DNA of 64,000 bases. Origin: Phytophthora quininea (lineage: Eukaryota > Oomycota > Peronosporomycetes > Peronosporales > Peronosporaceae). This document shows, in pieces, positions 27,135-62,968 of the stretch. Within the stretch, counting starts at the first letter, position 1, and the number at the start of each line of letters is the position of its first letter. Position numbers and translations under genes: made by a program. The stretch is taken from assembly GCA_011947345.1 (NCBI GenBank), contig JAAVTG010000537.1, forward strand, positions 42,148 through 106,147, given 5' to 3'. The notes under the pieces were generated by a model that had not been told where the DNA came from, did no database searches, and saw only the letters and a program-made list of their open reading frames with translations.

Positions 27135-28491
27135 CTACTTCAGGAGTGGGTGCCACCATATTGCAACATATTTGGCGCTCTCAAGATTTTGTCCCGAGTC
27201 GTAGTTGATGCCGTCCTTGGTTGAAAGCCCCGCCACGATCCACGAGCCGATGGTTTCGTCCTGGCCCTGGATGACATAAAAGTTGTTGGTGGCCGGTTCA
27301 GTCTTGTTGAAGAAGTCCCAGGCCTTGGTGTAGTACTTTTGGATGCAGGTCGACGAGCCCTGCAGTCGATCGATGACATGGACGACACCGTCACGAACGG
27401 TGGACAGCATCTCGCAGTCGCCTTCAGAGTCGCCTGACCCGTAAATCGCAGCGGATCCATTGTGGAGTGGCTTTAGAACCGAATTGACGATGGTAGCTTT
27501 GCCGGGGCCCCAACTGATGGGGAAGTTGTCTTCGTACTCAGTTGTGGCTCGACCGGCTGCATCGGCCTTGAATTTTACGCCGTGCACGTGATCGTCTGGG
27601 ACTTCGTATCCCAAGCCGCCGAGACTGCTAGCTGCGCGCACATAGTTGGCTGGTGACGCACTGACAATATACACATCGAGGCCAGCAGCTCGTAGAGCAC
27701 GCATGATTGTCTCCTGCCCGTTGAAAATGCGCAGGCCCTTGTAGAACGGGCCCGTGACTGGGAAATCGCCTGTCGATGTGAACGGTTCCGTCTTGAGCTC
27801 TTGGCCCAGATGCCAGCGGGTGGCGTACTGAACGACGAACTTGACTTCGCCCTCGGTCATGTTGGCGGTCAGCAACGGGAGAACTCCCATGCCAATTTTC
27901 AGAGCCCACTCAGAGTAGGGGTCTCCACCGTCGCGACTCCAAAGAGCGTGCAGTAGAAACGCCATTTTGGCACGAAAGTTGACGAACTCCTTGGTCGTCT
28001 TCACTTGATAAATAGGAGTGAACGGGGCACTTGTGATGTGGTGGTACATCCGAGCGATGTGGGCGTGGTACAGCACCTCGTAGTCCTTTGCAGCTTCTTC
28101 GATGGCGGTCGCCAGAGTCACGTTCGTCTTGTTCACGTCCTGCCCGATGACTGTGTTGATGCCATTCATGAGGCAGTTGTCATTGCTGTTGGAGGTGTAG
28201 CCCATTGAGAAGATCGACTTGAAGGCGTCTGGGGAGATGCGAAACTTGAGCTGTTCAACTTGGTAGTAGGCAGTGGCGTAGGCCACGTCACCGAAGACGC
28301 ACGTGTTGTCCCAGTCGAAGACGGCGTAGGCTTGGCCGGGGACGGAGAGAGCTTACGTTACCGAGTAAGCCGCCAATTTTCTGGCTGACGTGATCGGGAG
28401 CTTCCGCCACAATGAAGTTGTCGGTGGCGGCGACAGAGGTGAGGAATACTATCGCCAAAACTGCGGCACGAAGAAAGTGGGCCATGGTCAT
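27135..28491 (-). CDS. Secreted HAD-superfamily phosphatase, paralogue 1
   Basis: Start MTMAHF at 28491 (or MAHF at 28485), with a clear signal peptide (FLRAAVLAIVFLTSVAA), so secreted or vacuolar. HAD motifs: FDWDNTC (motif I, both Asp present), VYIVSASP (motif II), GPGKATIV (motif III Lys) and YGSGDSEGDCEML (motif IV). The family resembles extracellular phosphatases such as phosphorylcholine or phosphoserine phosphatases; the substrate is not determined. A frame break lies just before motif I, around 28335-28350, in a CT/C-rich stretch (one base extra or two short). A good initiator-like motif lies at 28522-28537. Two further paralogues lie at 32452-33797 and 34568-35910. Confidence 0.85.
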
Positions 28492-28537: not shown

Positions 28538-29114
28538 CGAATTGACCACACTCCACATCGAGTGAGCTCGCGATTCAACAACTGGCAGACTCAGTTGAAA
28601 TACGTAGTAAAAAGGATAGGAGATATCCAGTCAAAGTTATTGGCGTCGTCACGCCTACATTGTAGGTGATACCATCCTCAGTGCTGAAATCTCCGATGTT
28701 TTTGTGCTGAGTTCCGTCATTTCAAGCCCTTCTTAGGCAATAGCTGCAGATGCAAGCCGAAGCGCTCGGGTAGGAATTCATATCTCCAACTTTCGATGTT
28801 CGCGAAGTTGTACGTACACACTTCATTTCTTGCTTACGAGGGATCCGACCTACGTCTCAACTTCTCGACAGCAGCATTTCATCATCGCTGCCTTTGAAGC
28901 GTGCGTGGCTCACGCTCCGTCGGACCCCTCGCTGGCAACACGCATTCCGGCTGTTATAGCGGCACTCGGCACCCGGCAACTCGAGCATCGCGCACCGCCG
29001 CAGACAAGCAGAGGAAAGTAAACTAACAACTCATCATCGAACGTACTGGGACCAAAAGCTTGGCCTTTTGGGTGATGGCGGTCTCCACCTCGGATACACC
29101 CATGGAACCACTAG

Positions 29115-31889
29115 TCACACGAAGTACATTGCGCTCTTCATGGACTGGTGCACGTCGTACATGCGCGTGTCCGTCTCAGGGGCAGTATCGCCCGAGACGT
29201 TCGAGGCCGTGTCACTGCCATCCACAAGGAAGAACCGCGCACGGAAGGCCACGAGATGCGAGTAGTAGGCCGACGGGACCATCGACACCGACCGCGTGCA
29301 GCGTGCAAACGTGTAGCACAGACGGTAAGTGAGCGTCTGCAGCTCGTCCGCCGTAAAGCCGATCTCGTTCACGAGCACATGGTAGTGCGTTGGGCGACTG
29401 GTGCCCTGCAGGCCTGCGTGGCTCATCAAGTAAAAGTCGTTCTCGATCGGGTGGCAGATTCCCGAGTCCACAACGGTGCCTGCCTTCACGTTGCCGCTGC
29501 GATCGGCATCTTTGGCGTTGTCTGGGAACAGCCGAGTGTTGTGGCGCTTCTGGACGATCACAAACGTGATCGGCGGATTGTAGTCCTTCTCGAGCATCGC
29601 GCAGGCCTGACGAATAGCAGTCACCTCGTAGTTGACAACCATGTGGAACTGGCCTTCACTGACACCGTCACGGTAGAACACGATGCGCTCCGGCTTACCG
29701 TGAGTCATGCGATAGAAACTTTTCATCATCTCGACCACCATGTCTCGCAGCTCCATAATTTGCTCCACGCGGTGGCCTTGGGCTCGGATGGTCGACGTGT
29801 GGCGAATGAAGTTCGCGTCCATCGAGGCTGTCACCGCCGCGATGGATGGACGCGTCCTGTCCATCGGACTGGGGTGCGTCACGTCAGCCCCAAAGATGAT
29901 GGTACGTGAGGCCGACACGCGCGGCAGGCCGCCTTGGATCACAGCGTTCTTGCCGCCAAGCTTCGTGTTCACCTTCATCAAGATGTTGGCGATGTATTGC
30001 GGATTGCATTTGGGAATGTGCTTCGCTAGCATGCACTGCGACACGATGCCCATGCCTGCTTCTGTGTCTGACATCAACTTGAGCTCACCGTAAGAGCGAG
30101 CATCCGAGACAGGATTAATCATCCAAATGAGCTGCGGCGTTTGTTTGTACGTGCTCGTAGCATCCTTGACTGCGGTCTGAAACAAGCTGCGGACGGAGTC
30201 TTGTCGATTTTGCTTCTGCACAATAGGCGGCATCGCTTTCGGGCCTCGCATGCCCAGCTGCCCCATTTGGGCAACAACGGCGCTAAAGAATTTGTGAATC
30301 TCTTGCGTTGAGCAGCGTCTCGGATCGCACATGCTGACAACCGCCCAGGATTGGAACTGTGCAGGACTGTTGAACCGTTTGCCGCGCATGTTCCAAGCTC
30401 CATCACGCGGGCTCTCGCGACCCCCACCACTGTACTCGAGCGTAGGAGGCGGAAGCTGGCGGCCGGTCGTCTCCACCATCCTCGGCTCAACCTCCAGCCC
30501 GAACGCCCGCAGCGTCGGGTCCGTGTTGAAGCCCGCGTCGCATAACTTTTGCTCGATCGAACGCTTGCGAGCGTCAGGCTTGGTGCAAGTGAACTTGATC
30601 ATGTTCGCTACCTGCTTATCCGTCACCTTGCGAGGACACTTTTGTCCTGCCATAATGTGGCACACTTCCATGGGTAGATAGTTTTTCTTCTGCGGGGCTC
30701 CGACGTGTAGACACGGCAATTTGGGGTACCGCAGACGAATTCGATAGGTCTGCTGGAAGTACTCAACAATCGACATGCGCTGGCCCTGGTCGTTCTCGAA
30801 GAACGTGTTCTCGGCACTATTCCTCGACAGTCCGTTGACACGATAGCTACGTCTCACACCAGGACGGTGCGTAATGTTCACCTTGACGCCTCGGATGGCC
30901 TTGGCGAAGTCCTTGTGCTGATACTGATTCAGACTTGTCGGCACGGCTCGCAACGACAGCGACGTGACCAGGTAGTCAACCACGTCCATCTCCTCCACAA
31001 AAGCCGTCGCAGCCAGGTCGAGATTCACCACGAGTCGGTTCTGCGTGGCTCGGATGCTCTGGAAGTAGCCAAACCACAGCTCCGCTCCTTCTCCGAGGCT
31101 TGTCGCCCCATTCCCGTGGAACAAGTTCCGCCCCACCACCGTGAACCTCTGCGCCGCTGTGTGGCGCAACGCCACGTCCAGCGCCTGCAGCGCGTCGTAC
31201 GGCGTGTAGTTCAGCCGGCCCGCAAAGAGCTCCTCCAGCTGCTGCATGCGGATGGCCACCGGGTCCGCCTCCTTCACCACCGCCGAGAAACTCCTCTGTC
31301 GCCCACCGTCGTCCGGCAGCTGCAGGTCTGCGAACTCCTGGACCTGAAAGGGCAGTCTGCCGGGGCTGTAGATGTTCTTGCGATTGTCGCTCACCACGAA
31401 GGAGCGAGGGAACTGTCGGCGCAGTTCCTGCACCAGCGCAGTCATGATCTTGCCCGCCAGCGTCTTGGGGGCCGTCACTCCCAAAGCTCTGCCCGTTCTC
31501 GGCCATGGCCACGTCGTAGTGGTAGACGTCTCCAGCCAGGTTCAACTTGACCTTGAAATGGTTCGCATGGAGCTTGACGGCTCGCCCGGCGGTGCCGAAG
31601 CCTGGACGCGGAGGGAAATGGGTCTGCACCAGCGGCTGCACCAGAGTGGGGGCTGGACCGGCGACCCGGGCCTTACCTTCGAGCTCGGACGCCAGCTGCT
31701 CGGCGGAAGGAGCCGCGCGCGCTGGCGGAGGGGAGGCGCGTGCGTTTGAGGAGGGGGAGGGGAAGGCGGTGGCGCTTGGGCTGGCGCCGGGCCTCGTCCA
31801 CGGCCGCGTCCACGACCACGACCACGACCTCTACCCTGGCCTTGGTTGCCTTGGCCTTGGCCTTGCGATGCTTGTCGGCGTCCTGGCAT
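29115..31889 (-). CDS. AGO: Argonaute protein, left copy
   Basis: Small-RNA-guided silencing effector of about 924 residues. The start MPGRRQASQG at 31889 lies behind an Inr-like motif. The N-terminus is a GRG-repeat tail (arginine methylation and Tudor-binding type). N, PAZ (YPKLPCLHVG region), MID and PIWI domains follow. The PIWI slicer residues are all present: GADVTHP (Asp), MELRDMV (glutamate finger), YRDGVSEGQF (Asp) and THYHVLV (His), ending in AYYSHLVAFRARFF. Slicing activity is therefore likely. Two frame breaks exist, in a C-rich run at 31753-31757 and between about 31474 and 31500. The last 789 residues are in one uninterrupted frame, identical to those of the copy at 41631-44404. 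Confidence 0.93.
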
Positions 31890-31910
31890 CTTGAAGAATG
31901 AAGGGAACGT

Positions 31911-31923
31911 GGTTGAAATGAGG
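31911..31923 (-). promoter_or_regulatory. Oomycete Inr-like element of left AGO
   Basis: The minus strand reads CCTCATTTCAACC, 22 bp upstream of the start codon; it is identical in the right arm at 41597-41609. Confidence 0.55.
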
Positions 31924-32167
31924 TGTTGGGTCAATGACACCCCGTTAAAATCGATATGGATACGTCGAATGTGGCTGTGGGGGCAAACGTCACTACCGTG
32001 GTTGAAGTGAGAACCGATAACCCGGTGAAATGCCATGTCCTGAAACAGTTGATGCACCTGACGCGTCCGTTGCCGTTGCGTCTCCGATCTTGAAGAGAAG
32101 TGGACCGAAATCTGGCGACGCTGGTCGAGAGTGCCGCGGACAAAGCTATGAGAAGGCAGGCCTTCGG

Positions 32168-32357
32168 TGTTGGAAAGCGCAGTCCCGCAAACGCTCTATA
32201 GATGCAACGACAACTTGTTATATGCTCAGCTTCTTCCTGACTGAACTAATGTATGCAAAGCCACTAGCCGCCTAGATCTTCTGACTACGTGGTCCACTTC
32301 AGTAACTACACAACCGGTGTTGTGCTCTTGCTAACGGCAGGAGCTCACGTTCCAACA
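32168..32357 (-). repeat. Solo LTR of a copia element (190 bp)
   Basis: Begins TGTTGGAA and ends TTCCAACA. It is flanked by the 5-bp target duplication CCGAA (seen as TTCGG on the plus strand at 32163-32167 and 32358-32362). At the three positions where the two LTRs of the full element differ, it matches the 5' LTR (36005-36194). It sits at the position in the left arm that corresponds to the full element in the right arm. Confidence 0.93.
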
Positions 32358-32451
32358 TTCGGGGCATGCACGATGGTTGGAATTAGAGTTAAGCTGTAGT
32401 GGGGCGCCACACCACCACGAGTCGGGCTAATTAACGGCGCTGCTCTCTGTC

Positions 32452-33797
32452 TTACACCTCCAGGAACTGGTAGGCCGCACAGCCGTCGTAGGCGGTCACG
32501 CCCGACTTGTACGAGACGCCGTCCGTAGTGGTGAAGCCCGACGTGATCCACGAGCCGATGGTCTGGTCTTGGCCCTGCAGCAGGTACGTGTTGTTCGTGC
32601 TGGGCTCCGTCGTGTTAAAGTACTCGCAGGCCTTTTGGTAGAACGCGTTAATGCAGGTGGAGTTGTCCTGCAAGCGGTTGATGACATCGATAATGCCGCC
32701 GCGCACAGTGCTGAGCATCTCGCAGTCGCCGTCCGAGTCTCCGGAGCCGTAGATTGGAGCGGAACCATTGTGCATGGGCTTCAAAATGGTCTCGACAATC
32801 GTCCCTTGCCAGGACCCCACGTGATGGGGTAGTTGTCTTCGAGCACGGGGGTGAACAGGCCAGCCTCGTCAGTCTTGAAGCGGACTGCGTACACATTGCT
32901 GTTGGGCACCATGTTCCCAAGCCCAAGCAGGTTAGCGGCCTCCTCCGTCACAATTTGAGGCGACGCGCTTATCACAAACACGTCCATGTCCGCTGCACGC
33001 AGAGCTCGCATTGTGGCCTCCTGTCCGTTGAACAAGCGGATACCCTTTGTGAACCAACCCTTAACGACCAGGTCGCCACTTGAGCTGAACGTGAGGTCTT
33101 CAAGTGCTTGGGCCATGTTCCACTGGAGACCAGATCGGACAACAGACTTCATCTCCTCCTCCGTCATGCCCACAAACAACCGCGGGAGGACACTCATCCC
33201 GATGGTTTGGGCACAGTCCGAATACCAATCGCCTCCGTCCATGAGCTCGATGCTGTTGAGCAGGAATCCCACTTTGGCTCGGAAGTTTTGATACTCGGTG
33301 GTCTTCTTGATCGCATCCAACGAGATGTTGGTCACCGAGTCGGTGAGGTTGAACGTCGGGGCGACATAGGCGTCGTAAAGAACTTTGTAGTCCTTGGCCG
33401 TATTGCTCGTAGCCACTGCCAACGTCACGTTCGCGCCATTCGCATCCTGGCCGATGATCGTGTTTGTACCGTTGACGAAGCAGGCATCGCCGCTGGTCGA
33501 GTTGTAGCCCATGGAGAAGACTTGTTCGAAGTCCTCGGGGGCAAAGCGGATACTCAAGCTGTCGACTTGGTAGTAGGCCATGGTGTATGACAGATCACCG
33601 AACATGCTGGTGCTGCTCCAGTCGAAGACGGCGTAGGCCTCGCTGGAAGCCCGAAGAGAGTCAACGTTGTCAAGCAAATTGCCGATAGCCTTGTTGTTGT
33701 AGTCCGGTGCCTCGGCTGCGATAAAGTAGTTGGAGGCCGAGACAGCGGGCGCCAGCAACACAGCCGTAAAGGCAACGCACCCCAGGAAGCGAGCCAT
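32452..33797 (-). CDS. Secreted HAD-superfamily phosphatase, paralogue 2, motif I altered
   Basis: Start MARFLGCVAF at 33797 with a signal peptide (AFTAVLLAPAVSA) and a strong Inr 25 bp upstream. Motif I reads FDWSSTS instead of FDWDNTC, so the second, acid/base Asp is lost. Motif II (VFVISASP) and motif IV (YGSGDSDGDCEML) are present. Asn-x-Thr glycosylation sites are common, as expected for an extracellular protein. The last part, from FKTDEAGLFTP onward, is the same at DNA level as in the gene at 34568, whereas the first two thirds differ. A one-base break occurs at the C3 run 32803-32805 and is shared by both arms. Without the second Asp, phosphatase activity is doubtful. Confidence 0.85.
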
Positions 33798-33821
33798 GGC
33801 GCGGGGTGGTGTGCCCAGGGC

Positions 33822-33837
33822 AAGTTGCGGAATGAAA
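33822..33837 (-). promoter_or_regulatory. Oomycete Inr element of HAD paralogue 2
   Basis: The minus strand reads TTTCATTCCGCAACTT, an almost perfect oomycete initiator, 25 bp upstream of the ATG at 33797. Confidence 0.7.
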
Positions 33838-34522
33838 AGTATCCTTTTCGCGATTAAAAGTTTCTGATCTGGTCGAGCGTCCTCCACCACAGAGCGAGCG
33901 AGTGCTGCCCATGTGGGATAACCCGATCGGGATGTGGGGTCGCCGGAGCGGGGAAGTCGCCACCAACGCTGAGTGCTCCATTTGCACTCATCGTCGATAA
34001 CTCCGCGCAGACTGCAAGCATCTGATGGTCTCGACAATCTCCGTCACGTCTGACTCCGCGCTCGCTGCTTATAATTTACCGTGCTCGAAAGCTGTCCGCC
34101 GTCTTTAATTTTCAGTTTTGCTAATGGCGCTACCATGATCGCAACAACTTTCACACTGGTGTGGAAAGCAATGACGTGTCTAGTGCTTTACTACATGTAG
34201 TTTACGACCGCGTTGAACTGCAAACAGGGATCGCGTTTGTAAATGTGTTGGATGAGTGCTAGTCGCACCGGCGTGGCAATCGTTTCATGATTACCAGGGC
34301 TTTGTTGGGTATTGTGCCACAGCTCAATGAAAGAAACTTCATCTTTCAAACCTGACTGCATCATCAACATATGCTTGCCGTCCTCCTTGAGCGAGTGCTA
34401 GGCCAGCACTCATCCACTTTAGCCCTCAGGACGTCGCCCACCACTCTCCACATCCTCGTTGATCAAGATACAGCATCAAAGCTGTGGAGACAGACATTCG
34501 TTGAGATTGTCTCGACCGCAGA

Positions 34523-34536
34523 TCATTTCCCAATTT
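34523..34536 (+). promoter_or_regulatory. Oomycete Inr element of HAD paralogue 3
   Basis: TCATTTCCCAATTT, an almost perfect oomycete initiator, 31 bp upstream of the ATG at 34568. Confidence 0.7.
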
Positions 34537-34567
34537 GCTTTGATCTTGGCACTCCCAAGTGGCTGCC

Positions 34568-35910
34568 ATGGCTCGCTTCGTCGGCATCGCTGCACTTTCG
34601 ACGGCTCTCGCGGTATCTTCAGTCGCTGCCGACAGCTATTTTTTCGCGGCGGAGGCTCCGGACTACAACAACGTAGCAATCGCCAACCTGTTGGAGAATG
34701 TGAACGACCTTCGCGCTCCTGGCGAGGCCTACGCCGTTTTCGACTGGGACAACACGTGCACTTTCGGAGATCTCTCGTACACGACGCTCTATTACCAAGT
34801 GAGCAATTTGATCATGCGCTTCGCACCAGAGGAGTTTGAGGAGATTTTCTCCATGGGCTACAACGCAACGAATGGTGATCCGTGCTTCATCAACGGCACC
34901 AATACAGTCATCGGTCAGGACGTGAACGGGACGGACGTGACGTTCGCCAAGGCCATCGAAGAGACCAAGAAGGATTACGAGGTGCTCTACGATGCCTACA
35001 TCGGCCCGACGTACAACCTTACCAACACGTCCGCAACCGCCACACTCGACGAGATCAAGGAGACCGTCGAGTACATCAACTTCCGCGGCAAGATCGCATT
35101 CCTTCTGTACGCTCTGTGGCGAGATGGCGGCGATCCCTACTCCAAGTGCGCTATGAGAGTCGGTATGAGCGAACTCACACTTCTGTCAGTCCGCATGCCC
35201 GAAGCTGAGGTCAGTGAAATGGCTCGTGCGAGCATCCGCTGGAACCTGGCCCAGGACTTTGAAGACCTCACCTTCGCCTCGACCGGAGACTTTGTGGTCG
35301 AAGGGCCGTTCTACAAGGGTCTTCGCGTGTTCAATGGCCAGGAATCCATCATGCGTGCTCTGCGTGCTGCGGGTGTCGAGGTGTACATTGTCAGTGCGTC
35401 CCCGGAGCTCTACGTCCGCGAGGCCGGTAGCATCCTTGGCTTGGGTTACATGATCCCCAAAGACAACTTTTACGCCGTCAGATTCAAGACTGACGAGGCT
35501 GGCCTGTTCACCCCCGTGCTCGAAGACAACTACCCCATCACGTGGGGTCCTGGCAAGGGACGATTGTCGAGACCATTTTGAAGCCCATGCACAATGGTTC
35601 CGCTCCAATCTACGGCTCCGGAGACTCGGACGGCGACTGCGAGATGCTCAGCACTGTGCGCGGCGGCATTATCGATGTCATCAACCGCTTGCAGGACAAC
35701 TCCACCTGCATTAACGCGTTCTACCAAAAGGCCTGCGAGTACTTTAACACGACGGAGCCCAGCACGAACAACACGTACCTGCTGCAGGGCCAAGACCAGA
35801 CCATCGGCTCGTGGATCACGTCGGGCTTCACCACTACGGACGGCGTCTCGTACAAGTCGGGCGTGACCGCCTACGACGGCTGTGCGGCCTACCAGTTCCT
35901 GGAGGTGTAA
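34568..35910 (+). CDS. Secreted HAD-superfamily phosphatase, paralogue 3
   Basis: Start MARFVGIAAL at 34568 with a signal peptide (ALSTALAVSSVAA). All HAD motifs are present: FDWDNTC (motif I), VYIVSASP (motif II), GPGKG (motif III Lys) and YGSGDSDGDCEML (motif IV). A secreted phosphatase is the best call, with unknown substrate. The 3' third, from about 35483, is identical to the left-arm gene. The one-base frame break at the G3 run 35557-35559 is also shared; one extra G there gives Lys-Gly-Thr-Ile-Val, like the third paralogue's Lys-Ala-Thr-Ile-Val. It is transcribed outward, towards the copia element and AGO. Confidence 0.87.
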
Positions 35911-36004
35911 GACAGAGAGCAGCGCCGTTAATTAGCCCGACTCGTGGTGGTGTGGCGCCCCACTACAGCTTAACTCTAATTCCAACCATCGTGCATGCCC
36001 CGAA

Positions 36005-36194
36005 TGTTGGAACGTGAGCTCCTGCCGTTAGCAAGAGCACAACACCGGTTGTGTAGTTACTGAAGTGGACCACGTAGTCAGAAGATCTAGGCGGCTAGTG
36101 GCTTTGCATACATTAGTTCAGTCAGGAAGAAGCTGAGCATATAACAAGTTGTCGTTGCATCTATAGAGCGTTTGCGGGACTGCGCTTTCCAACA
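36005..36194 (+). repeat. 5' LTR of the first copia element
   Basis: 190 bp, TGTTGGAACG...TTTCCAACA with short inverted ends. Same variant as the solo LTR at 32168-32357. Confidence 0.92.
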
Positions 36195-36252
36195 GGGTTA
36201 TTGAGCCCGAATCATTTGGAAGAAGGTCCTGCTGTGAAGCGCCTAGGACGGG

Positions 36253-37558
36253 ATGTCTGGAGCGACGACTGGTACGACCAATTCTGCTGGAACGCCGCTG
36301 GCGGGTGTAGAAGTAAACGGAAAAGGGTTACCTGTAAAATGGAACGGTGAGCATTGGGATTACTACAAAGAGCTCATGCTGAGTCGTTTCCAAGAGGATG
36401 GCTTGGAGGACATCGCTGATGGGACCCAGGCGGCTCCTTTGGCTCCTCAAACTCCTGACTCAACTGAGGGCCAACAAAGAGATTCTGCTGCTTCCACTGA
36501 TCCTGGTCCGTCTCCGGAGATGGTAGAGTGGAAGAACAAACAGGGAACGATCAAGAGACTCATTCTCGGGTCATTATCACTAGCATTGGCGCAGCGTGTG
36601 ATGAGGAAGGCTAATGGGACTGCGATGTGGAAAACCCTGGTTGAGTTATTCGAAACACCAAGGAACCAAGCACTCAAAGTGACAGTTGATTCACCAATTG
36701 TGGCATACATGCACGCGGAAAGACGAAGACATGATGATGCATCTAGGGAGAATGTATGAGATTCGTGATCGCTTCACAACGCTGAAGTATACTGTTCACG
36801 ACGTGGATATGATCGATGCGATGCTAAATAGCTTGCCAAGACACGCGAAGTACCAACAATTGACGAACATGATAACATTGAATCCTAATGGAGGTGCATC
36901 TGTGGACGATGTTCGTGATATTATCCTGGTAGCTGCGTCCCAACTGAAGGAGGAGAACATGGAGTTCTCGGGAAGCCGCGCCACTGCAGGAAACAACCGA
37001 AATGGCAGCGGAGACACAAAGGCTGGGAAAGCTGGAAACCAGAAGGGACAGCAGCAGCAAAAGCAGCAGAAAACACGCGAGGTTAAGTGTTTTCATTGCC
37101 ATAAGACAGGTCACATCAGGAAATACTGTCCTGACCGTGAGTCAAGAGAAATTAGTAGTGCGGAAGCGGTGAGGCCGCAGGCGCAGGTTCCAGGCGTTAG
37201 TAAGTGCAGCAAATATGCAGAGTCGCGGCAGGAACTTGTAGGGCGAAGTAATGTGGACGACTCCACGGACTTGAAACCAGTGGCCGGAAACTACAACGCT
37301 CGTCGCTGGGTGTACGACATCGGGTGTAGTGGCCTTGTTGTAGAGAGTATGAAGTATTTTGTGACCTATGAAGAGTTTGACGACGGTCCTGAACAAGTAA
37401 AAGGATTCGCAAAGGGTGTGCAATCAAACGCACGCGGAGTTGGTGTCGTCGCGCTGGCGACGGATGTTGGCGACGGTGAATTGACGATAAGCATGTTAGA
37501 AGACGTCGCATACGTGCCAGACTCGAACTGGAATTTGTTCTCGGTGAGACAAGCCTGA
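36253..37558 (+). pseudogene. Copia gag and protease region (element 1)
   Basis: The gag start is MSGATTGTTN at 36253. A frame change near 36715-36740 leads into a second frame carrying the CCHC zinc knuckle (CFHCHKTGHIRKYC), then an aspartic-protease-like site in which the usual DSGAS reads DIGCS. The frame ends after SVRQA at 37558. The altered protease motif and the broken frames suggest inactivity. Confidence 0.8.
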
Positions 37559-37626
37559 AAGCAAGGCTTCATAGAACGAAAAACGAGAAGACTGGCGAAT
37601 GTAAAGTCTATCGTAACAATAAGCTA

Positions 37627-40600
37627 GTGTTGCGAGGAAATATTGGCGAAAATAATGTGTGGACTTTCGATGCACATAATACGTGGATTGATGACGAGTC
37701 GGAACCCGGGGACGAAGGAGCCATAGCAAATTACACCGTTGCGGATGGCATTCCCGGCATTCGTACCTGGCACACGAGACTTGGGCACACGTGTGCACAG
37801 CATTTAAAGCAGATGGTAGACAAAGAATTAGAACGCGGAATGCTACTAAAAGGGCGAGACTTACCAGCTTGCATTACCTGCGAGGTGACAAAGCAAAAGA
37901 GATCCAAACACGAGTCCGTCTTTGATCGAGACGATAAGGAGCCGAATGATGCCATCTACGTGAACCTGATGGACCCAGGACGGAAAAATCGCACGAGGTA
38001 CACACATGTGCTTGTGATCGTGGATGGGTGTTCGCGGTGGACGACGACGTACATGCTAACCAGCAAATCAGAAACATGTGACAGGCTGAAGCAATACGTT
38101 GCATGGGCGGAGAGATAGCTTTCGCGACCAGTGAAGAAAATACTATCCGATAGCGGAAGTGAGTTTGTAAACCAAGAAGTGAAAACCTGGTGTCATGAGC
38201 ACGGAATTCAGCTCGCGACGGTTGCACCTGGCGGGTCGTCAGTGAATTATGCCGAGCGCGCGATTCAAACACTGAGAAACACGATGAAGTCGATGTTGAA
38301 GCACTCTGGACTTCCATTGAGTTTTTGGCCTGATGCATTGGGAAATGCATGCTATGTTCGAAATCGAGTACTGTGTAGAAGTACAATGCGGACACCATTT
38401 GAGCTATTCCATGGTAAGAAACCCGACATACATCGTATTCGTACGTTTGGTGCATTGGTGTACGCTCACATTCCGAAGGACTTGCGACCGAAGAACGCTG
38501 ACACAAGTGATGTAGGATTCCTGTTGGGATATTCTGAAGAAAACATGGGTACGAAAGTCTACTTCCCGCAGTATCACACTGCTAGGATTGTGTACACAGT
38601 TCGTGTCAACGAAGATATTCTGTACCGAGATCGAAACGTTCTTCCTTCATCTGCAGTTGGCTGGATAGCAGATCAACATGTTGATGTTGAGGGAAGAGAT
38701 GGTGCGAGCGATGATAGCTCTGCCAGTGAAGCCGATGACTCGAATTTTATAATGGAATCGAGTGACTCGGATGATGGTGAAGAAATGTCCAATTCAAGTG
38801 ACCATGGAAGTGATCAAGAGCCTGATGACGACGAGCCAACCGTGCTACGACCTCGAGTACACCTGCATTTGTTGACGGACGAACATGACGAAAATAATGA
38901 CTCAAATGACATTATTGTAGATGCAGAGAGTACTACGGATGAAGTTGTAGCTGGTGCAGATAACCGTGAATATGACGCAAGCAGTAGCGAAACGGGTGGA
39001 GATCAGCGAGACGGCGACATCGAACCTCTTGGAGTGGAATATGGAGATGATGTAGCTGCATTTGATGATCCTGACCCCGAAGATTTCCCCGTTTGTAGCG
39101 ACGATCAAGAGCCAGAGAGATCTGAAGCTGGTGATGATGTTGGAAATGCAGTCGTTGATCAACCCGAACATGGTAAGGTTGATGTTGGTTTCGTCGAAGA
39201 AAATGATGACCCTATGGACATTGAAGTCGAGACCTGGGAACTGCAACCCGATGCGCAGATAGTCGTTGAGCATGAGCGGAACCTCGTAGATCACATGAGA
39301 TCATTTAGCGCGACCCCAAATCGTGGAGAAAACACACACGCGAATCAATAATCGACCGACGTGAAGACGTGAAGAAGCAGCGCTACGAACCTCGGGACGT
39401 TAAACGTCCGAAACGTGAGCATAAACTTCCCAAGTACTTAGAGGATTACGTCGTAAACGCTACACTACGGCCATCTTTAATTGGAAAACGGTGGAAGTCG
39501 TCGGAGGTAAAAGTACCGAAGACTTTCCGTGAGGCGATGCGCTCAAAGCAAGCTGGCGAGTTGAAGGCAGCAATGGAGCGAGAAATACAAGCCCTACGTG
39601 ACAAAGGTGTCTTGACATTAATTGAGGAGCTGCCTGAGGGGCAGCATGTAATCGATACGAAGTGGGTTTATGATGTTAAAACCAATGAAGAGGGATACAT
39701 CATCCGATTTCGTGCGCGTGTCGTTGCTCGTAGATTCAAGCAGATACCTGGCTTGGATTTCCTGGAGACATTCTCTCCTGTTGCGCGGTTATCAACAGTG
39801 CGTATGCTGTTGGCACTAGCATGTGCACTTGACTGGGAAGTTTGGTCAGGTGATGTGAACAACGCTTATCTCAACGCTAAGTTGAAGATTAAGCAGTATA
39901 TACAGAAAATTGATGGATTCCCAGAAGAGAGTGGAGTCTTTCGAGTAAACCAAGCATTGTACGGCTTGAAGCAGTCCGGTAGAGAATGGAACGAAGAAAT
40001 AGATGGCTGGATGAAGGAGCGAGGTTTCCAACCATGCAAGAGCGAGCCTTGTCTTTATTTCTATGCTAGTGACGGAGTGCTAGCATTTGTTCTAATCTAT
40101 GTGGACGATGTTATCTGTACCACAAACTCGGAGGAGTTCAAGTGCAGGCTGTTTGAAGACTTGGAGCAAAGTTACGGTTTCAAAGATATGGGACTTTTGA
40201 AAAGTTACTTAAGCATCCGAGTGCAGCAAACTGAAGTTGGAATTCTTATCGACTAAGAAGAGTATGCTCGTAAACTCTGTGAAACGTTTGACTTAAAAGC
40301 AGGTCAGTCTAATAGATGTGGTATTCCTATGGAGACAACCGTGAAATTGAGAAAATGTGAGCGTGAAAAGACAGGAGATTGTCAACACGCACAAGGCAAA
40401 GTTCCGTACCGTGAAGCGGTTGGTGGTTTGATGTACTTAGTGACCGCTACGCGACCAGACTTGATGTACGTGGTCGGGCAGTTGAGTAGGTTTGTTGAAC
40501 ACCCAACGGAGCAGCACATTGGTGCATTAAAACGTGTGATGCGTTACTTGCTTGGAACAGCTAGTAAGGGAATCCAGTACGAGAAGCGTGGGTCACTGGA

Positions 40601-41090
40601 CATTGGTCTACACCTACAAGGGCATTCAGGTAGTGATTGGGCGAATGATGTCGATACTCGGAAGAGTACGACAGGTTTTGTCTTCACCATGACTGGCGGG
40701 GCGGTGTCGTGGGCATCGCGCAGGCAAACCATCGTCGCGCAGTCAACTGCTGAAGCAGAGTACGTTACTGCGTGCGAAGCAGCGATGGAAGGGAAAGCTC
40801 TGATGAATATTTTGGACGAGTTGCTACCAGAAATGAAGCGAAAAATTACACTAGGAGTTGACAATCAATCATCCTACGTGATGGCAACAAATCCAACTTT
40901 TGGCAGGCGAACTAGACATATTGAGCTGAAGTGGCATTTTGTGCGGGAACAAGTCATGAAGAAAGAGTCGTATCTCTTGAAGGTAAAGTCTGCCGACAAC
41001 CCAGCAGATCTCTTTACAAAGCCGTTGGCAAAACAGCGTTTTGAACTACTTTCGAGTTTAATTGGAATGACCGCGGCACGAATGAACTGA
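37627..41090 (+). pseudogene. Copia integrase, reverse transcriptase and RNase H region (element 1)
   Basis: GAG-pre-integrase zinc finger (WHTRLGH...CITCEV), then the integrase core. The first catalytic Asp position reads YVNLMDPG (Asn), while SDSGSEF (Asp) and NYAERAIQTL (Glu) are kept. A long acidic Asp/Ser/Glu-rich linker follows at about 38690-39330. Reverse transcriptase (RVT_2) has DTKWVYDVK, LYGLKQSGREWNE and the YVDD catalytic box. The RNase H end has QSTAEAEYVTACEA and RHIELKWHFVRE. In-frame stops lie at 38116-38118 and 40254-40256, and a frame break lies near 39350. Confidence 0.88.
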
Positions 41091-41163
41091 AGCAAAGTGT
41101 CTAAGTATCCTATATTGCCGACCTGTGATACTGAGAGTTAACGCAGACACGGCAAAGGAGGAG

Positions 41164-41353
41164 TGTTGGAATGTGAGCTCCTGCCGTTAGCAAGAGCACT
41201 ACACCGGTTGTGTAGTTACTGAAGTGGACCACGTAGTCAGAAGATCTAGGCGACTAGTGGCTTTGCATACATTAGTTCAGTCAGGAAGAAGCTGAGCATA
41301 TAACAAGTTGTCGTTGCATCTATAGAGCGTTTGCGGGACTGCGCTTTCCAACA
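41164..41353 (+). repeat. 3' LTR of the first copia element
   Basis: 190 bp. Differs from the 5' LTR by C to T, A to T and G to A changes, all in its first half. Confidence 0.92.
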
Positions 41354-41596
41354 CCGAAGGCCTGCCTTCTCATAGCTTTGTCCGCGGCACTCTCGACCAG
41401 CGTCGCCAGATTTCGGTCCACTTCTCTTCAAGATCGGAGACGCAACGGCAACGGACGCGTCAGGTGCAGCAACTGTTTCAGGACATGGCATTTCACCGGG
41501 TTATCGGTTCTCACTTCAACCACGGTAGTGACGTTTGCCCCCACAGCCACATTCGACGTATCCATATCGATTTAACGGGGTATCATTGACCCAACA

Positions 41597-41609
41597 CCTC
41601 ATTTCAACC
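41597..41609 (+). promoter_or_regulatory. Oomycete Inr-like element of right AGO
   Basis: CCTCATTTCAACC, 22 bp upstream of the ATG at 41631; the copia element inserted upstream leaves it untouched. Confidence 0.55.
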
Positions 41610-41630
41610 ACGTTCCCTTCATTCTTCAAG

Positions 41631-44404
41631 ATGCCAGGACGCCGACAAGCATCGCAAGGCCAAGGCCAAGGCAACCAAGGCCAGGGTAGAGGTCGTGGTC
41701 GTGGTCGTGGACGCGGCCGTGGACGAGGCCCGGCGCCAGCCCAAGCGCCACCGCCTTCCCCTCCCCTCCTCAAACGCACGCGCCTCCCCTCCGCCAGCGC
41801 GCGCGGCTCCTTCCGCCGAGCAGCTGGCGTCCGAGCTCGAAGGTAAGGCCCGGGTCGCCGGTCCAGCCCCCACTCTGGTGCAGCCGCTGGTGCAGACCCA
41901 TTTCCCTCCGCGTCCAGGCTTCGGCACCGCCGGGCGAGCCGTCAAGCTCCATGCGAACCATTTCAAGGTCAAGTTGAACCTGGCTGGAGACGTCTACCAC
42001 TACGACGTGGCCATGGCCGAGAACGGGCAGAGCTTTGGGAGTGACGGCCCCCAAGACGCTGGCGGGCAAGATCATGACTGCGCTGGTGCAGGAACTGCGC
42101 CGACAGTTCCCTCGCTCCTTCGTGGTGAGCGACAATCGCAAGAACATCTACAGCCCCGGCAGACTGCCCTTTCAGGTCCAGGAGTTCGCAGACCTGCAGC
42201 TGCCGGACGACGGTGGGCGACAGAGGAGTTTCTCGGCGGTGGTGAAGGAGGCGGACCCGGTGGCCATCCGCATGCAGCAGCTGGAGGAGCTCTTTGCGGG
42301 CCGGCTGAACTACACGCCGTACGACGCGCTGCAGGCGCTGGACGTGGCGTTGCGCCACACAGCGGCGCAGAGGTTCACGGTGGTGGGGCGGAACTTGTTC
42401 CACGGGAATGGGGCGACAAGCCTCGGAGAAGGAGCGGAGCTGTGGTTTGGCTACTTCCAGAGCATCCGAGCCACGCAGAACCGACTCGTGGTGAATCTCG
42501 ACCTGGCTGCGACGGCTTTTGTGGAGGAGATGGACGTGGTTGACTACCTGGTCACGTCGCTGTCGTTGCGAGCCGTGCCGACAAGTCTGAATCAGTATCA
42601 GCACAAGGACTTCGCCAAGGCCATCCGAGGCGTCAAGGTGAACATTACGCACCGTCCTGGTGTGAGACGTAGCTATCGTGTCAACGGACTGTCGAGGAAT
42701 AGTGCCGAGAACACGTTCTTCGAGAACGACCAGGGCCAGCGCATGTCGATTGTTGAGTACTTCCAGCAGACCTATCGAATTCGTCTGCGGTACCCCAAAT
42801 TGCCGTGTCTACACGTCGGAGCCCCGCAGAAGAAAAACTATCTACCCATGGAAGTGTGCCACATTATGGCAGGACAAAAGTGTCCTCGCAAGGTGACGGA
42901 TAAGCAGGTAGCGAACATGATCAAGTTCACTTGCACCAAGCCTGACGCTCGCAAGCGTTCGATCGAGCAAAAGTTATGCGACGCGGGCTTCAACACGGAC
43001 CCGACGCTGCGGGCGTTCGGGCTGGAGGTTGAGCCGAGGATGGTGGAGACGACCGGCCGCCAGCTTCCGCCTCCTACGCTCGAGTACAGTGGTGGGGGTC
43101 GCGAGAGCCCGCGTGATGGAGCTTGGAACATGCGCGGCAAACGGTTCAACAGTCCTGCACAGTTCCAATCCTGGGCGGTTGTCAGCATGTGCGATCCGAG
43201 ACGCTGCTCAACGCAAGAGATTCACAAATTCTTTAGCGCCGTTGTTGCCCAAATGGGGCAGCTGGGCATGCGAGGCCCGAAAGCGATGCCGCCTATTGTG
43301 CAGAAGCAAAATCGACAAGACTCCGTCCGCAGCTTGTTTCAGACCGCAGTCAAGGATGCTACGAGCACGTACAAACAAACGCCGCAGCTCATTTGGATGA
43401 TTAATCCTGTCTCGGATGCTCGCTCTTACGGTGAGCTCAAGTTGATGTCAGACACAGAAGCAGGCATGGGCATCGTGTCGCAGTGCATGCTAGCGAAGCA
43501 CATTCCCAAATGCAATCCGCAATACATCGCCAACATCTTGATGAAGGTGAACACGAAGCTTGGCGGCAAGAACGCTGTGATCCAAGGCGGCCTGCCGCGC
43601 GTGTCGGCCTCACGTACCATCATCTTTGGGGCTGACGTGACGCACCCCAGTCCGATGGACAGGACGCGTCCATCCATCGCGGCGGTGACAGCCTCGATGG
43701 ACGCGAACTTCATTCGCCACACGTCGACCATCCGAGCCCAAGGCCACCGCGTGGAGCAAATTATGGAGCTGCGAGACATGGTGGTCGAGATGATGAAAAG
43801 TTTCTATCGCATGACTCACGGTAAGCCGGAGCGCATCGTGTTCTACCGTGACGGTGTCAGTGAAGGCCAGTTCCACATGGTTGTCAACTACGAGGTGACT
43901 GCTATTCGTCAGGCCTGCGCGATGCTCGAGAAGGACTACAATCCGCCGATCACGTTTGTGATCGTCCAGAAGCGCCACAACACTCGGCTGTTCCCAGACA
44001 ACGCCAAAGATGCCGATCGCAGCGGCAACGTGAAGGCAGGCACCGTTGTGGACTCGGGAATCTGCCACCCGATCGAGAACGACTTTTACTTGATGAGCCA
44101 CGCAGGCCTGCAGGGCACCAGTCGCCCAACGCACTACCATGTGCTCGTGAACGAGATCGGCTTTACGGCGGACGAGCTGCAGACGCTCACTTACCGTCTG
44201 TGCTACACGTTTGCACGCTGCACGCGGTCGGTGTCGATGGTCCCGTCGGCCTACTACTCGCATCTCGTGGCCTTCCGTGCGCGGTTCTTCCTTGTGGATG
44301 GCAGTGACACGGCCTCGAACGTCTCGGGCGATACTGCCCCTGAGACGGACACGCGCATGTACGACGTGCACCAGTCCATGAAGAGCGCAATGTACTTCGT
44401 GTGA
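41631..44404 (+). CDS. AGO: Argonaute protein, right copy
   Basis: Second copy of the slicer-type Argonaute. Start MPGRRQASQG at 41631, GRG-repeat N-terminus, then N, PAZ, MID and PIWI domains. PIWI residues: GADVTHP near 43630, the glutamate finger MELRDMV near 43765, YRDGVSEGQF near 43845 and THYHVLV near 44132. The last 789 residues equal those of the left copy. The C-rich run at 41763-41766 has four C here and five in the left arm; neither length keeps the frame, and six would (three also would). A second frame change between about 42020 and 42050 is identical in both copies. The promoter and Inr lie inside the duplicated arm, so both copies may be expressed. Confidence 0.93.
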
Positions 44405-44697
44405 CTAGTGGTTCCATGGGTGTATCCGAGGTGGAGACCGCCATCACCCAAAAGGCCAAGCTTTTGGTCCCAGTACGTTCGATGATGAGTTGTTAGTTTA
44501 CTTTCCTCTGCTTGTCTGCGGCGGTGCGCGATGCTCGAGTTGCCGGGTGCCGAGTGCCGCTATAACAGCCGGAATGCGTGTTGCCAGCGAGGGGTCCGAC
44601 GGAGCGTGAGCCACGCACGCTTCAAAGGCAGCGATGATGAAATGCTGCTGTCGAGAAGTTGAGACGTAGGTCGGATCCCTCGTAAGGAAGAAATGAA

Positions 44698-45896
44698 ACA
44701 TTGCGTGAGTGCTACTTTCCCGGTTGCTTGATGACATTGTATTCAAGGCACATGTGTCAATCGCCGAGGTTGGGGTGTTGATTTTATGAGGCTGGGCAAT
44801 GTTCACTACATGAGAATCGCGTACTTGTAAGGAACTTGCCAAGCCAAGGTAATACCCCGGAATTCTGGAAGCTGCGCTGGAGATAAGACCTTGTGATTCG
44901 AGTTGCTCGGGCCATTGCCATTTTGTTTTTGCGACTGTCTCGGCTTCTGTTTTCATGTAAAGTTGGCACACCGTTGTCAACCAACTCGGGGTAGCGCAAC
45001 AGCACTCATGTACTATTGATTCACTTCCCGCGAACGAACACGATGGATTTAACGAGTGGAAAAACCGCGACTGAGTGCGTTGTAGCGGCAAGAAAAGCAC
45101 TCGTGGTGATGAAATTGAGGTTCACCCGCACCCGCACACAGGGTCGTGCCAGCCTCGGAAAGGAAACATCGCCTCGGGGTCGTATAATTCCCTATGAGCT
45201 GGCAAGTTCGTAAAAGCAACGGCACGTGACACTGTAGTGTGGCGGCCAGCAATGCATTCTCCACTTGCACTGGGCCGACGATCGCTGATGATCAGCCAAC
45301 TCAATCAATTCACCCGTTGTGTGACGTGAGCGGCTGCCTTCCGCCAACAAAATTGGTGCATTGTCCTCGCCCCGCCTCACGCGCGTTATCCGCTCAACGA
45401 CTAAGCTTTTTGCGCGGTGCTTGGTTCTCACGCTGCAAAAAATGGAGATGCGCTCATAAACACAGGCTGTTCGTCGTCATGACGACTTGGTGTGGCTATT
45501 GAATTGCAAGCTGCCATGCATATGATCAGCTTTGATCCGCACCGTGATGGATATCGTGTCAACTTGTGATCCAAGCGTAAGCCTCGGACCAATGAGAACC
45601 GGCACCAGGCAATTGCTAACACCATTTGGACTAGTTAGTGCTCCTCCGTGAGCATGAGCGTACCCGCCTAATCGATGCCAGACCATGTCCAAGCAGTACC
45701 GTCGTCACTTTAGAGGCTGGCGGCACGTGGGCAGCAAACAAGACTTGTGCACCTTCCAACCGATTATCTGTTGTCTGCTCACGCCCCACCAGCAAACAGT
45801 GTGGTCGTACAACCACCACTTGAGGATGTCAGGCTCCACGACTGCAGCGACCTTGTACTCTTGGCCAGTGGTGGCAAAACTCTCCTTAGGCGATTC
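44698..45896. other. Intergenic, nothing recognised
   Basis: 1.2 kb between the outer edge of the right arm and the transporter promoter. A 200-codon minus-strand frame (44498-45100) begins here and runs into the arm, but it has no recognisable motif. A shortened form is found downstream of the left AGO. Confidence 0.5.
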
Positions 45897-47900: not shown

Positions 47901-49462
47901 ATGGCCGCTGTCTGCTCGCTCGTGGCGCAATTCGTCGTCCCTGGCGTCGGGAGTCTCATCGTCGACTCCATCTCCAAGATCTACGAAATCTGCCAAGAGC
48001 TCGAGGAGAACGAGGAAATGTGCTCGTCCGTCTGCAAGCGGCTCGAGTTCGTCAACGAGGAGCTGTCCAAAGTGACGGACGAGGAGGCGGTCCGTCAGAA
48101 CCGCATCCTGTTCCAGTACGGCCAGACCATCGCCAACTTCCTGCTCTTCTTGCAGAAGCAGGCCAACAAGAGCTTCATCAAGAGACTGGCCAGCAACCGC
48201 AAGGTGGTGGCGGCCATCCAGGAGTTCAACGAGGACATCGATGACCTGTACAAGCTGCTGAACCTCGTGCACATCCAGGAGATGACCAAGTGGAGACAGG
48301 AGTGGGAGAGCGACATCCGCAACCAGGAGCACAAGCTGCTGGAAATGGCCATGGACCAGCAGCGCGTCCAGACGGCGATCAAAACAACGACGGAGATCTG
48401 GTCGAAGGGCTCGCGATGCTCAAGTTCGAGATCCAGCACAAGGCCAACGAGAACTCGAGCAACGCGTTGGCGGCCATGAAGCGAACGTTCAAAAAGGTGG
48501 TGAGCCAGTCGAAGGCCAAGGTGCCGGCCACGCCCGAATGGTTCATCTCGAGTGACGACGTGGATTTCGAGGCCAAGAACACGACCGAGTGCGGCACCTA
48601 CGGCTCAGTGCATCGTGGAACGTGGGGAAGAGGCACCGAAGTGGTGATCAAGTGTCTGCTGATGGACGACAACCAGGCCAAGGAGTCCTTCTTCAGGGAA
48701 GTGGAAGTGTGGCGCAAACTCAACAATCCGCACGTGCTCGAACTGTTTGGTGCTTGCCATGTGAGTACGCCAGCCTTCTTTGTGTGTGAGGATGCCATCC
48801 ACGGCAATTTCGTCGACTTCTTCGGCAAGGATAAGAGCGAGGTGTGGAGGTTGTACTACGAGGCTGCAGTGGGCTTGGACTACTTGCACTCACAGAAGGT
48901 GGTGCATGGCGACCTGAAGTGCAACAATATACTGGTGGGGAGCGACGACAAGGCCAAGATTGGGGACTTTGGCTTCTCGTACATCCGCAGTCAGTCGGTG
49001 GGGCTGAGTGCCAAGGCCCAGACCGACACGATCCGATGGAAGGCGCCAGAATGCTTGATGCCGAGTGGTGAAGACGTTCCAGATGCGCGCAACCCAAAGT
49101 TCGCTTCGGATGTCTTCTCGTTCGGAATGTGCATTATCGAAGGCGTCACGGGCGAGCCTCCGTACGGATTCGTCGATGACGAGGAAATCATGGAGGCCAA
49201 GTACGAAATGCAGCCGTACGAGCGCCCGGAAGGCTTTGCAGACGACGAGTGGGCGTTGGTCGAGAGACTTTGCGATCCAGACTGGGAGAACCGAATTCAA
49301 CTCTCGACTGCCATTGAAGAGCTCAAACGGTTTGCAGACCGCGAGGCAGAGCGAAATCTTTTGGCCAATGCAGATCGCGAGTGCCCGGAGTGTAAGGCCA
49401 AGGTGGCAGCCGAATATGCTTTCTGTGGGAGCTGCGGACACCGAGTCGCTCCTCCAGCATAA
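47901..49462 (+). CDS. TKL kinase with MLKL/HeLo-like helical N-terminus and zinc ribbon (B-type)
   Basis: Start MAAVCSLVAQ at 47901, about 520 residues. The N-terminal 150 residues form several amphipathic helices (IYEICQELEENEEMCSSVCK; FLLFLQKQANKSFIKRLASN; AAIQEFNEDIDDLYKLLNL) in a pattern reminiscent of the helical bundles in front of MLKL and fungal HeLo proteins; this is an inference. The kinase domain has GTYGSVHRGTWG, EVVIKCLL, VVHGDLKCNNILVGSD, GDFGFSYIRS, IRWKAPECL and SDVFSFGMCIIEG, so it should be active. The C-terminal ribbon is CPECKAKVAAEYAFCGSCG. One break occurs at the A4 run 48381-48384. It is tail-to-tail with its paralogue, 104 bp apart. Confidence 0.85.
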
Positions 49463-49566
49463 GAGTGTCTCGATAGATGTCAACAGTTCGAGTGTATTCA
49501 ATCCACGCGTTCATTTAAAAGTTGGATATGCTTGCTATGGCGTACGAACACTCATTACCAGTTCCT

Positions 49567-57568: not shown

Positions 57569-57617
57569 ATGTCCTACGAAGCACAAAAGCGAGTGCTAAC
57601 GCACCTGCTTGCGGAGA
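57569..57617 (+). pseudogene. 5' part of an open frame split by the second copia element
   Basis: ATG at 57569 reads MSYEAQKRVLTHLLAE and stays open up to the LTR. Skipping the element and one target duplication, the frame continues at 62700 with NHKPACGRCHGLLAADARGG, then at least one frame change to 62786-62968. It was probably a host gene of unknown function disrupted by the insertion. The CxxC hints at a metal site only. Confidence 0.4.
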
Positions 57618-57827
57618 TGTTGGAACTTGCGTGCGCACGGTGGACAGCCGATGGCGATAAGATCGGCGGTGGCCCAGCATGAGCGGATGCAGCGCTAGTA
57701 GTCCAGAAAGATAGCGGACAGCAGGTTGAACCAAGTCCACGTGTGTAGGCCACGGCGTGGAGGCCGACAGCGGCGAGATAATGCTCAGTCTCAAAAGTTC
57801 TTCCAACTGCACAAGTCCAATTCAACA
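57618..57827 (+). repeat. 5' LTR of the second copia element
   Basis: TGTTGGAACTTGCG...TCCAATTCAACA, 210 bp, with one GT unit more than the 3' LTR. Confidence 0.93.
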
Positions 57828-57834
57828 GGTTATG

Positions 57835-62476: not shown

Positions 62477-62491
62477 CCTCCCGGGAAGGAG

Positions 62492-62699
62492 TGTTGGAAC
62501 TTGCGTGCGCACGGTGGACAGCCGATGGCGATAAGATCGGCGGTGGCCCAGCATGAGCGGATGCAGCGCTAGTAGTCCAGAAAGATAGCGGACAGCAGGT
62601 TGAACCAAGTCCACGTGTAGGCCACGGCGTGGAGGCCGACAGCGGCGAGATAATGCTCAGTCTCAAAAGTTCTTCCAACTGCACAAGTCCAATTCAACA
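62492..62699 (+). repeat. 3' LTR of the second copia element
   Basis: 208 bp, equal to the 5' LTR except for one GT unit at GTCCACGTGTAGG. Confidence 0.93.
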
Positions 62700-62968
62700 G
62701 GAGAACCACAAACCCGCGTGTGGCCGATGCCACGGTCTGCTCGCTGCTGATGCTCGTGGCGGGGCCCCCAAACTCCGTTTGCTGAATGGAGGAGATTTGC
62801 CGGCTCAACGGGCGCTTCTTTTTCCCGACTGTTTTGGCGTGGCTAGCCCTGTCGTTCGACGTGGGCGACCTTCCTCAAGTTATAGGAGGTTTTGATCGAA
62901 AAGATGGGAGAATTTTATATTTCCTCCTAAAGCAAACATCAATAAAGACTCATCGCCTCCAAGCTTAG
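62700..62968 (+). pseudogene. 3' part of the open frame split by the second copia element
   Basis: Continues the frame interrupted at 57617 (see that entry): NHKPACGRCHGLLAADARGG, then after a frame change near 62780 MEEICRLNGRFFFPTVLAWL and VGDLPQVIGGFDRKDGRILY to a stop at 62968. Function not recognised. Confidence 0.35.

Follow-up and report, generated by a model that had tools for sequence, protein, structure and literature searches.

An inverted AGO1 gene pair in Phytophthora quininea, very probably kept alike by gene conversion between the arms of a palindrome

The 64,000-nucleotide stretch of Phytophthora quininea DNA analysed here (the window) is part of a contig we call C526, from an assembly of 87 Mb and 993 contigs, and it contains a near-perfect palindrome that carries an Argonaute gene, AGO1, in each arm. 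We hold with high confidence that this is an old inverted AGO1 pair that has been homogenised within each haplotype by gene conversion between the arms. Both haplotype contigs carried the palindrome, with identical junctions, and sequence variation sorted by chromosome inside the arms and by arm outside them. The initial annotation had described a near-perfect palindrome with a 2.6-kb centre, and both the window self-comparison and a four-way alignment bore this out at 28822-32879 and 35483-44697. The principal features of the locus were as follows.

28822 to 32879, minus strand: left palindrome arm, with the 3' end of HAD2 (a HAD-family phosphatase gene), a solo long terminal repeat (LTR), and the AGO1 promoter region and gene.
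32880 to 35482, no strand: centre, non-homogenised, holding the divergent 5' parts of HAD2 and its paralogue HAD3.
35483 to 44697, plus strand: right palindrome arm, with the 3' end of HAD3, a full copia element, and the AGO1 promoter region and gene.
29115 to 31484, minus strand: left AGO1 copy (clade I), a 789-aa frame with its likely start codon at 31889.
42035 to 44404, plus strand: right AGO1 copy, a frame for the same protein with its likely start codon at 41631.

The arms were reverse complements of each other apart from the copia element in the right arm, with 2,603 bp between them, and HAD2 and HAD3 lay inside while the AGO1 copies were transcribed outward. Arm limits were set from the four-way alignment, in which, on the inner side, the last arm-specific site fell at 32880/35482 and, on the outer side, the first fell at 28821/44698. 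In the self-comparison, 28822-32360 matched 44697-41161 at 99.75% identity. On the AGO side, the two arms of C526 differed by three mismatches in 3,344 aligned bases and two one-base gaps (99.85% identity), and the two arms of a second contig, C153, by one mismatch and seven gap openings (99.53% identity). The few positions that distinguish the arms include 32052/41469. The two sides of the centre were 61-69% identical in their paralogous part and 50-53% identical towards the middle. The earlier description of the arms as matching except for the internal region of the copia element was right overall, with the amendment that the left arm bears a solo LTR; an AGO gene was present in each arm as described, together with the 3' ends of two HAD-phosphatase paralogues.

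A genome-wide search for this AGO returned, besides C526, an inverted pair on C153 and one copy on a contig C869. C153 was colinear with C526 on both sides of the locus and had the same palindrome, outer junctions and centre (98.6% identical between the two), and a 3.5-kb flank segment had exactly two copies in the assembly, 98% identical. Given this colinearity and the two-copy flank, C526 and C153 were taken as two haplotypes or two homeologs. They differed by 9-37 single-nucleotide polymorphisms (SNPs) per kb across six compared segments; on the AGO side, 76 mismatches were counted in 3,336 aligned bases between the left arms and 57 in 3,029 between the right arms, with 301 end bases outside the latter alignment. 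Since the C153 palindrome has the same junctions, the duplication is not younger than the haplotype split, and an assembly artefact becomes unlikely.

The four-way alignment comprised both arms of C526 and both arms of C153, and gap-free sites were counted; C869 was excluded from these counts and included in a five-way alignment. Among 1,019 variable sites, 68 were haplotype-sorted, 836 arm-sorted and 115 singleton or multi-state, and none supported the third pairing. All 68 haplotype-sorted sites fell within the tract 28822-32879 / 35483-44697, which otherwise held 28 singletons and two arm-sorted sites, both in a poorly aligning C/T run. Paralogues are therefore closer to each other than orthologues are within the tract (68 vs. 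2 sites), although the duplication is older than the lineages.

Several reservations apply to this reading. Outside the tract, no site was haplotype-sorted and 834 were arm-sorted (Fisher p ~8e-101, a nominal value because the sites are linked); this indicates that the spacer and flanks were not homogenised, with the reservation that the outer-flank and mid-centre sites come from non-homologous sequence. The paralogous HAD part (alignment columns 501-1500) is the fair comparison, and it gave 292 arm-sorted sites and a single haplotype-sorted site, which lay inside the tract. The 28 in-tract singletons were also not all conversion edges: 11 belonged to the inner edge and four to the outer edge, eight lay in the C153 left arm around an N-terminal repeat indel, and five were scattered. 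The assembly contains visible long-read errors, and polishing could have hidden a few true differences between arms. Lastly, the AGO copies may be as old as HAD2/HAD3 or may have been copied later beside an old HAD pair.

The tract edges were themselves informative. Near the inner edge lies a cluster of 11 sites (35491-35520) at which only the right arm of C153 differed; they imply that left-type sequence was written ~38 bp further into the right arm of C526. As read from the sequence, this shift suggests separate conversion events, running left to right at that point. At the outer edge, the C153 left arm alone differed at four clustered sites (28829-28844), so that this edge, too, may differ between the haplotypes. 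A neighbouring inverted gene pair served as a negative control.

48488 to 50552, no strand: inverted kinase pair, arms 48488-49296 and 49745-50552, 79.6% identical.

This pair, which lies ~4 kb past the right junction and encodes convergent kinases with a zinc ribbon, had 159 arm-sorted sites, no haplotype-sorted site, one site of the third pairing and nine others, and was thus not homogenised.

A second line of evidence came from a retroelement insertion found on only one of the two haplotypes.

36005 to 41353, plus strand: copia-type LTR element with gag, integrase SH3-like and RVT_2 matches and 190-bp LTRs (36005-36194 and 41164-41353); target duplication CCGAA at 36000-36004 and 41354-41358.
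32168 to 32357, minus strand: solo LTR, inserted at the matching site and bordered by the same CCGAA duplication (32358-32362 and 32163-32167).

Both arms of C153 had an empty site at this position. Two independent insertions at the same base are implausible, and the same site and same target duplication in both arms of C526 therefore mean that the insertion was copied between arms: a mutation private to C526 moved from one arm to the other. The 5' and 3' LTRs of the element differed at 3 of 190 positions, and each time the solo LTR had the base of the 5' LTR, a pattern that loss of the internal part, either in the course of copying or later, would produce. Lying ~280 bp upstream of both AGO1 start codons on this haplotype, the LTR may affect expression of both copies.

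These observations bear directly on the alternative of a recent simple inverted duplication, in which the second AGO1 would be too young to have diverged. The near identity of the C526 arms fits it, and the initial annotation had offered it alongside ongoing gene conversion. We find it scarcely credible, because C153 shares the palindrome and its junctions in spite of the SNP differences between the contigs, and because the LTR insertion is in both arms of C526 and in neither arm of C153. It was rejected on the junctions common to C153, which we take to be allelic or homeologous. Ongoing conversion, by comparison, was strongly supported by the site sorting and the shared LTR.

The HAD-phosphatase genes, for which all HAD-type profile matches fell under the curated cut-offs, indicated how old the inverted arrangement may be.

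32497 to 34037, minus strand: HAD2, HAD-family phosphatase paralogue, frame 32781-34037, last part in another frame.
34559 to 35865, plus strand: HAD3, HAD-family phosphatase paralogue, frame 34559-35581, last part in another frame.
27135 to 28286, minus strand: HAD1, third paralogue, just beyond the left arm and transcribed away from it.

HAD3 was 63% identical to HAD2, rising to 100% where the frame enters the arm, over its last 32 codons. Across 306 codons outside the tract, synonymous divergence (dS) was 1.64, near saturation, and non-synonymous divergence (dN) was 0.30; the 32 codons within the tract showed no difference. Between haplotypes, the AGO frame had a dS of 0.041 and a dN of 0.006 (22 synonymous and 10 non-synonymous codons, one gapped), and none of its 789 codons differed between arms within either haplotype. 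Comparison of the two dS values places the HAD pair far earlier than the haplotype split and implies that the AGO arms have been equalised since then. In a tree of 28 sequences (24 of 53 matched proteins picked by hand, the three copies in the window, and a paralogue on contig C419), HAD2 was the sister of P. boehmeriae PHYBOEH_008929 (support 1.0), and HAD3 and HAD1 grouped, with support 0.88, with further genes of P. boehmeriae and P. kernoviae. On this placement, the HAD2/HAD3 duplication probably predates divergence from P. boehmeriae and P. kernoviae. One further HAD relative near HAD3/HAD1, P. boehmeriae PHYBOEH_000486 (weak support), was on a 5,163-bp contig, and no P. boehmeriae AGO1 was found by name among the AGO1 matches listed, many of whose rows are unnamed. 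Together, the short contig and the lack of a named AGO1 could reflect a collapsed palindrome in that species.

The tract opens within the paralogous HAD genes and continues in one direction across AGO1, which raises the alternative that a single copying event before the haplotype split (e.g., break-induced replication from HAD2/HAD3 homology) made the second AGO1 and that conversion only touched it up later. The apparent split of HAD2/HAD3 before the P. boehmeriae divergence also agrees with this, as does the single AGO1 in most Phytophthora species examined in the available text of PMC6284064. By itself, such an event gives no account of the chromosome-wise sorting; it concerns the origin of the pair and is compatible with later homogenisation. 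We regard it as a serious possibility with less than an even chance. No donor of the original copying could be named from protein comparison of the shared HAD 3' part, for which the nearest protein was from P. kernoviae (78% identity), followed by PHYBOEH_008929 (74%) and PHYBOEH_008930 (71%). A GC-bias comparison among genes of this locus gave a GC content at third codon positions of 0.76 for AGO, 0.74 for HAD2 and 0.73 for HAD3.

The gene probably kept alike by inter-arm conversion was assigned to the oomycete AGO I clade (AGO1), with slicer residues that appear intact by alignment. All six expected domains (ArgoN, L1, PAZ, L2, Mid and Piwi) were matched in Pfam (Piwi at 3.3e-99), and D, E, D and H of the protein lined up with the active-site residues of human AGO2. 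Motifs resembling the initiator (Inr) begin 13 and 33 bp upstream of the shared ATG (31889 / 41631). The D-E-D-H set matches the AGO I pattern given in the accessible part of PMC6284064. The closest relatives were Phytophthora proteins, with an unnamed P. kernoviae protein ranked first (85% identity) and P. megakarya and P. cinnamomi proteins that bear the name Argonaute1 at 83% and 82%; scoring was limited to the 7,995 candidates with the most words in common, and the assignment follows these nearest matches rather than an AGO tree. Taken with the HAD relatives, the AGO1 matches place this genome in the neighbourhood of P. kernoviae and P. boehmeriae. Separately, distant Argonaute homologues were seen on contigs C673, C643, C16, C17, C111, C691, C595, C942 and C184 (30-48% identity in the matched pieces). 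Several of them had internal stops, and they are probably AGO II members and pseudogenes.

The claim that each arm has a full slicer-type AGO with its own Inr, transcribed outward, stood for the domains, the D-E-D-H residues, the Inr-like motifs and the direction, and failed for the full reading frame: none of the five assembled AGO1 copies read unbroken from ATG to stop. The frame ended after 115 and 71 aa in the left and right arms of C526, 81 and 314 aa in those of C153, and 71 aa in C869. One break, in a C run, was common to all five copies; the break near the N-terminus was missing from the right arm of C153 only, and C153 and C869 each had one further break. We consider homopolymer-length consensus errors of the assembly the probable cause. 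Both C153 copies (341148-343513 and 348591-350956) carried the same frame change of one base next to an A run in the MID region, and a real break there would affect both AGO1 copies of that haplotype. The proposal of two active copies was compatible with the results: the same 789-codon frame is open in both arms, and the haplotype differences in AGO look like purifying selection. Such selection on the frame would make two interchangeable AGO1 genes the simplest function of the locus, and, judging by sequence, both copies are probably active.

Frame breaks of the homopolymer type are also what an assembly or polishing artefact might leave, whether by representing a single AGO locus twice or by smoothing out differences between the arms, and C869 duplicates part of the locus and passes from the element into unrelated sequence. 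There is nevertheless little chance of such an artefact. The structure is on two contigs with different private content, the arms have private differences and different insert states (solo LTR vs. full element), the solo LTR is on C869 as well, and the neighbouring kinase pair was not homogenised. C869 itself (10001-34965) holds the left flank, left arm, centre, and right arm up to ~40 bp of the copia element, followed by unrelated genes. Aligned with C526 over 8,740 columns, it had 13 gap openings and not one mismatch, a long-read error pattern, and in one flank (left) 26 of 35 mismatches carried the C153 allele, giving a mosaic of C526 and C153 alleles. We considered C869 as a third haplotype and rejected this; freedom from mismatches to C526 over 8.7 kb, the mosaic flank and the unrelated continuation led us to treat it as a redundant, partly chimeric contig.

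A mechanism can be proposed for how the arms are kept alike. In a diploid or hybrid Phytophthora-like oomycete, a divergently transcribed AGO1 pair flanked by HAD-phosphatase paralogues would pair arm with arm, probably within the same chromosome or sister chromatid. Repair would then copy one arm onto the other across ~3.9 kb (insertion excluded), the conversion tract beginning at the HAD 3' end, spanning AGO1 and ending ~290 bp beyond the AGO1 stop. The homogenising process would be gene conversion rather than crossing over; the orientation of the centre relative to the left flank was the same on C526, C153 and C869, so that no inversion by crossing over was seen. Were both copies expressed and interchangeable, the outcome would be a double, error-checked AGO1 dose.

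The initial annotation had also asked whether the locus might silence itself, the inverted arms giving AGO1 double-stranded RNA that feeds back on AGO1. Inverted and tandem repeats are, in the available portion of PMC3804510, the top feature types in P. infestans in small-RNA output per Mb, and this genome encodes ribonuclease III domains and an RNA-dependent RNA polymerase, consistent with a working silencing pathway. The gene directions speak against the idea. Both AGO genes run outward, so that the two mRNAs are the same sense sequence; the nearest recognised genes, HAD1 (minus, left) and a BT1-like gene (plus, right), are likewise directed outward; and the frames of the copia element read in the direction of the right AGO. 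These directions predict no transcript through both arms and leave no obvious source of double-stranded RNA. Domain-less open frames on the opposite strand are candidate antisense sources, among them a minus-strand frame (44498-45100, 0 Pfam families) that crosses the right junction, and the second kinase and TPPII point towards the arms but lie at least 4.9 kb past that junction. We therefore think self-silencing very improbable.

Elsewhere in the window, direct repeats of ~215 bp (57613-57829 and 62488-62701, 98.6% identical) flank a frame at 58188-60245 with Pol_BBD, integrase and zinc-knuckle matches. They are probably the LTRs of a second element.

The homogenised AGO1 pair represents a clear natural case of gene conversion in a palindromic pair, for which one genome supplies several independent traces (the sorting of sites, the insertion common to both arms and the displaced tract edges), and the gene concerned runs RNA silencing in an oomycete. 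It indicates that, when a retroelement lands upstream of one silencing gene, the insertion can spread to its twin. It also cautions that the number of AGO1 copies in Phytophthora may be misread, as may near-identical pairs such as PiAgo1/PiAgo2 that carry the label "recent duplication". A bolder proposal, which we think rather unlikely, is that AGO1 palindromes are old and widespread in Phytophthora and have collapsed to "single-copy AGO1" in short-read assemblies; they would be kept because conversion protects AGO1 dose and sequence, and the retroelement would have exploited this to be copied upstream of both genes on one chromosome.

The closest published parallel in the genus is in P. infestans, where PiAgo1 and PiAgo2 are two AGO1 co-orthologues with 99.9% identical proteins on one supercontig. 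These differ from the present pair in that both are on the minus strand ~20 kb apart, and are thus direct repeats, and they are described as a recent duplication in the accessible parts of the sources (PMC3804510, PMC6284064). AGO1 was mostly single in the Phytophthora species covered by the available text of Bollmann et al., with two nearly identical copies in P. infestans, two copies in P. pinifolia and three in P. cryptogea (PMC6284064); the word "conversion" has no occurrence in the main text of that paper. Among the matches listed in our literature search, in which subscription journals were thinly covered, none dealt with a palindromic Argonaute locus or with conversion of AGO genes in oomycetes. 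The term "gene conversion" reportedly occurs in a study of the Piwi-clade genes of Aedes albopictus (PMC6907866).

Homogenised inverted pairs of other genes are better documented. For the inverted Hsp70 and Amylase pairs of Drosophila, paralogues of one genome resemble each other more than orthologues of different lineages do, and the Amylase flanks are not homogenised, according to the accessible part of PMC3924832. Those pairs and the AGO1 palindrome are alike in being tightly linked mirror-image gene pairs; the AGO1 palindrome differs in gene and kingdom, in the comparison being made at the level of haplotypes, and in that a retroelement marks the transfer. The palindromes of mammalian sex chromosomes are far longer than the one described here. 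Their arms, e.g., those of human Y P6, are >99% identical with kb-long conversion tracts (PMC3723533, available text), whereas the AGO1 locus has a partner chromosome that also carries the palindrome. In C. elegans, long inverted repeats that are nearly perfect and hold homologous genes in divergent or convergent order were inferred to be actively maintained; the comparison there was between species, and the abstract has no Argonaute case (PMC1803023). Set beside these systems, conversion-homogenised palindromic gene pairs are well known, and AGO1 would be an unexpected gene to find in one.

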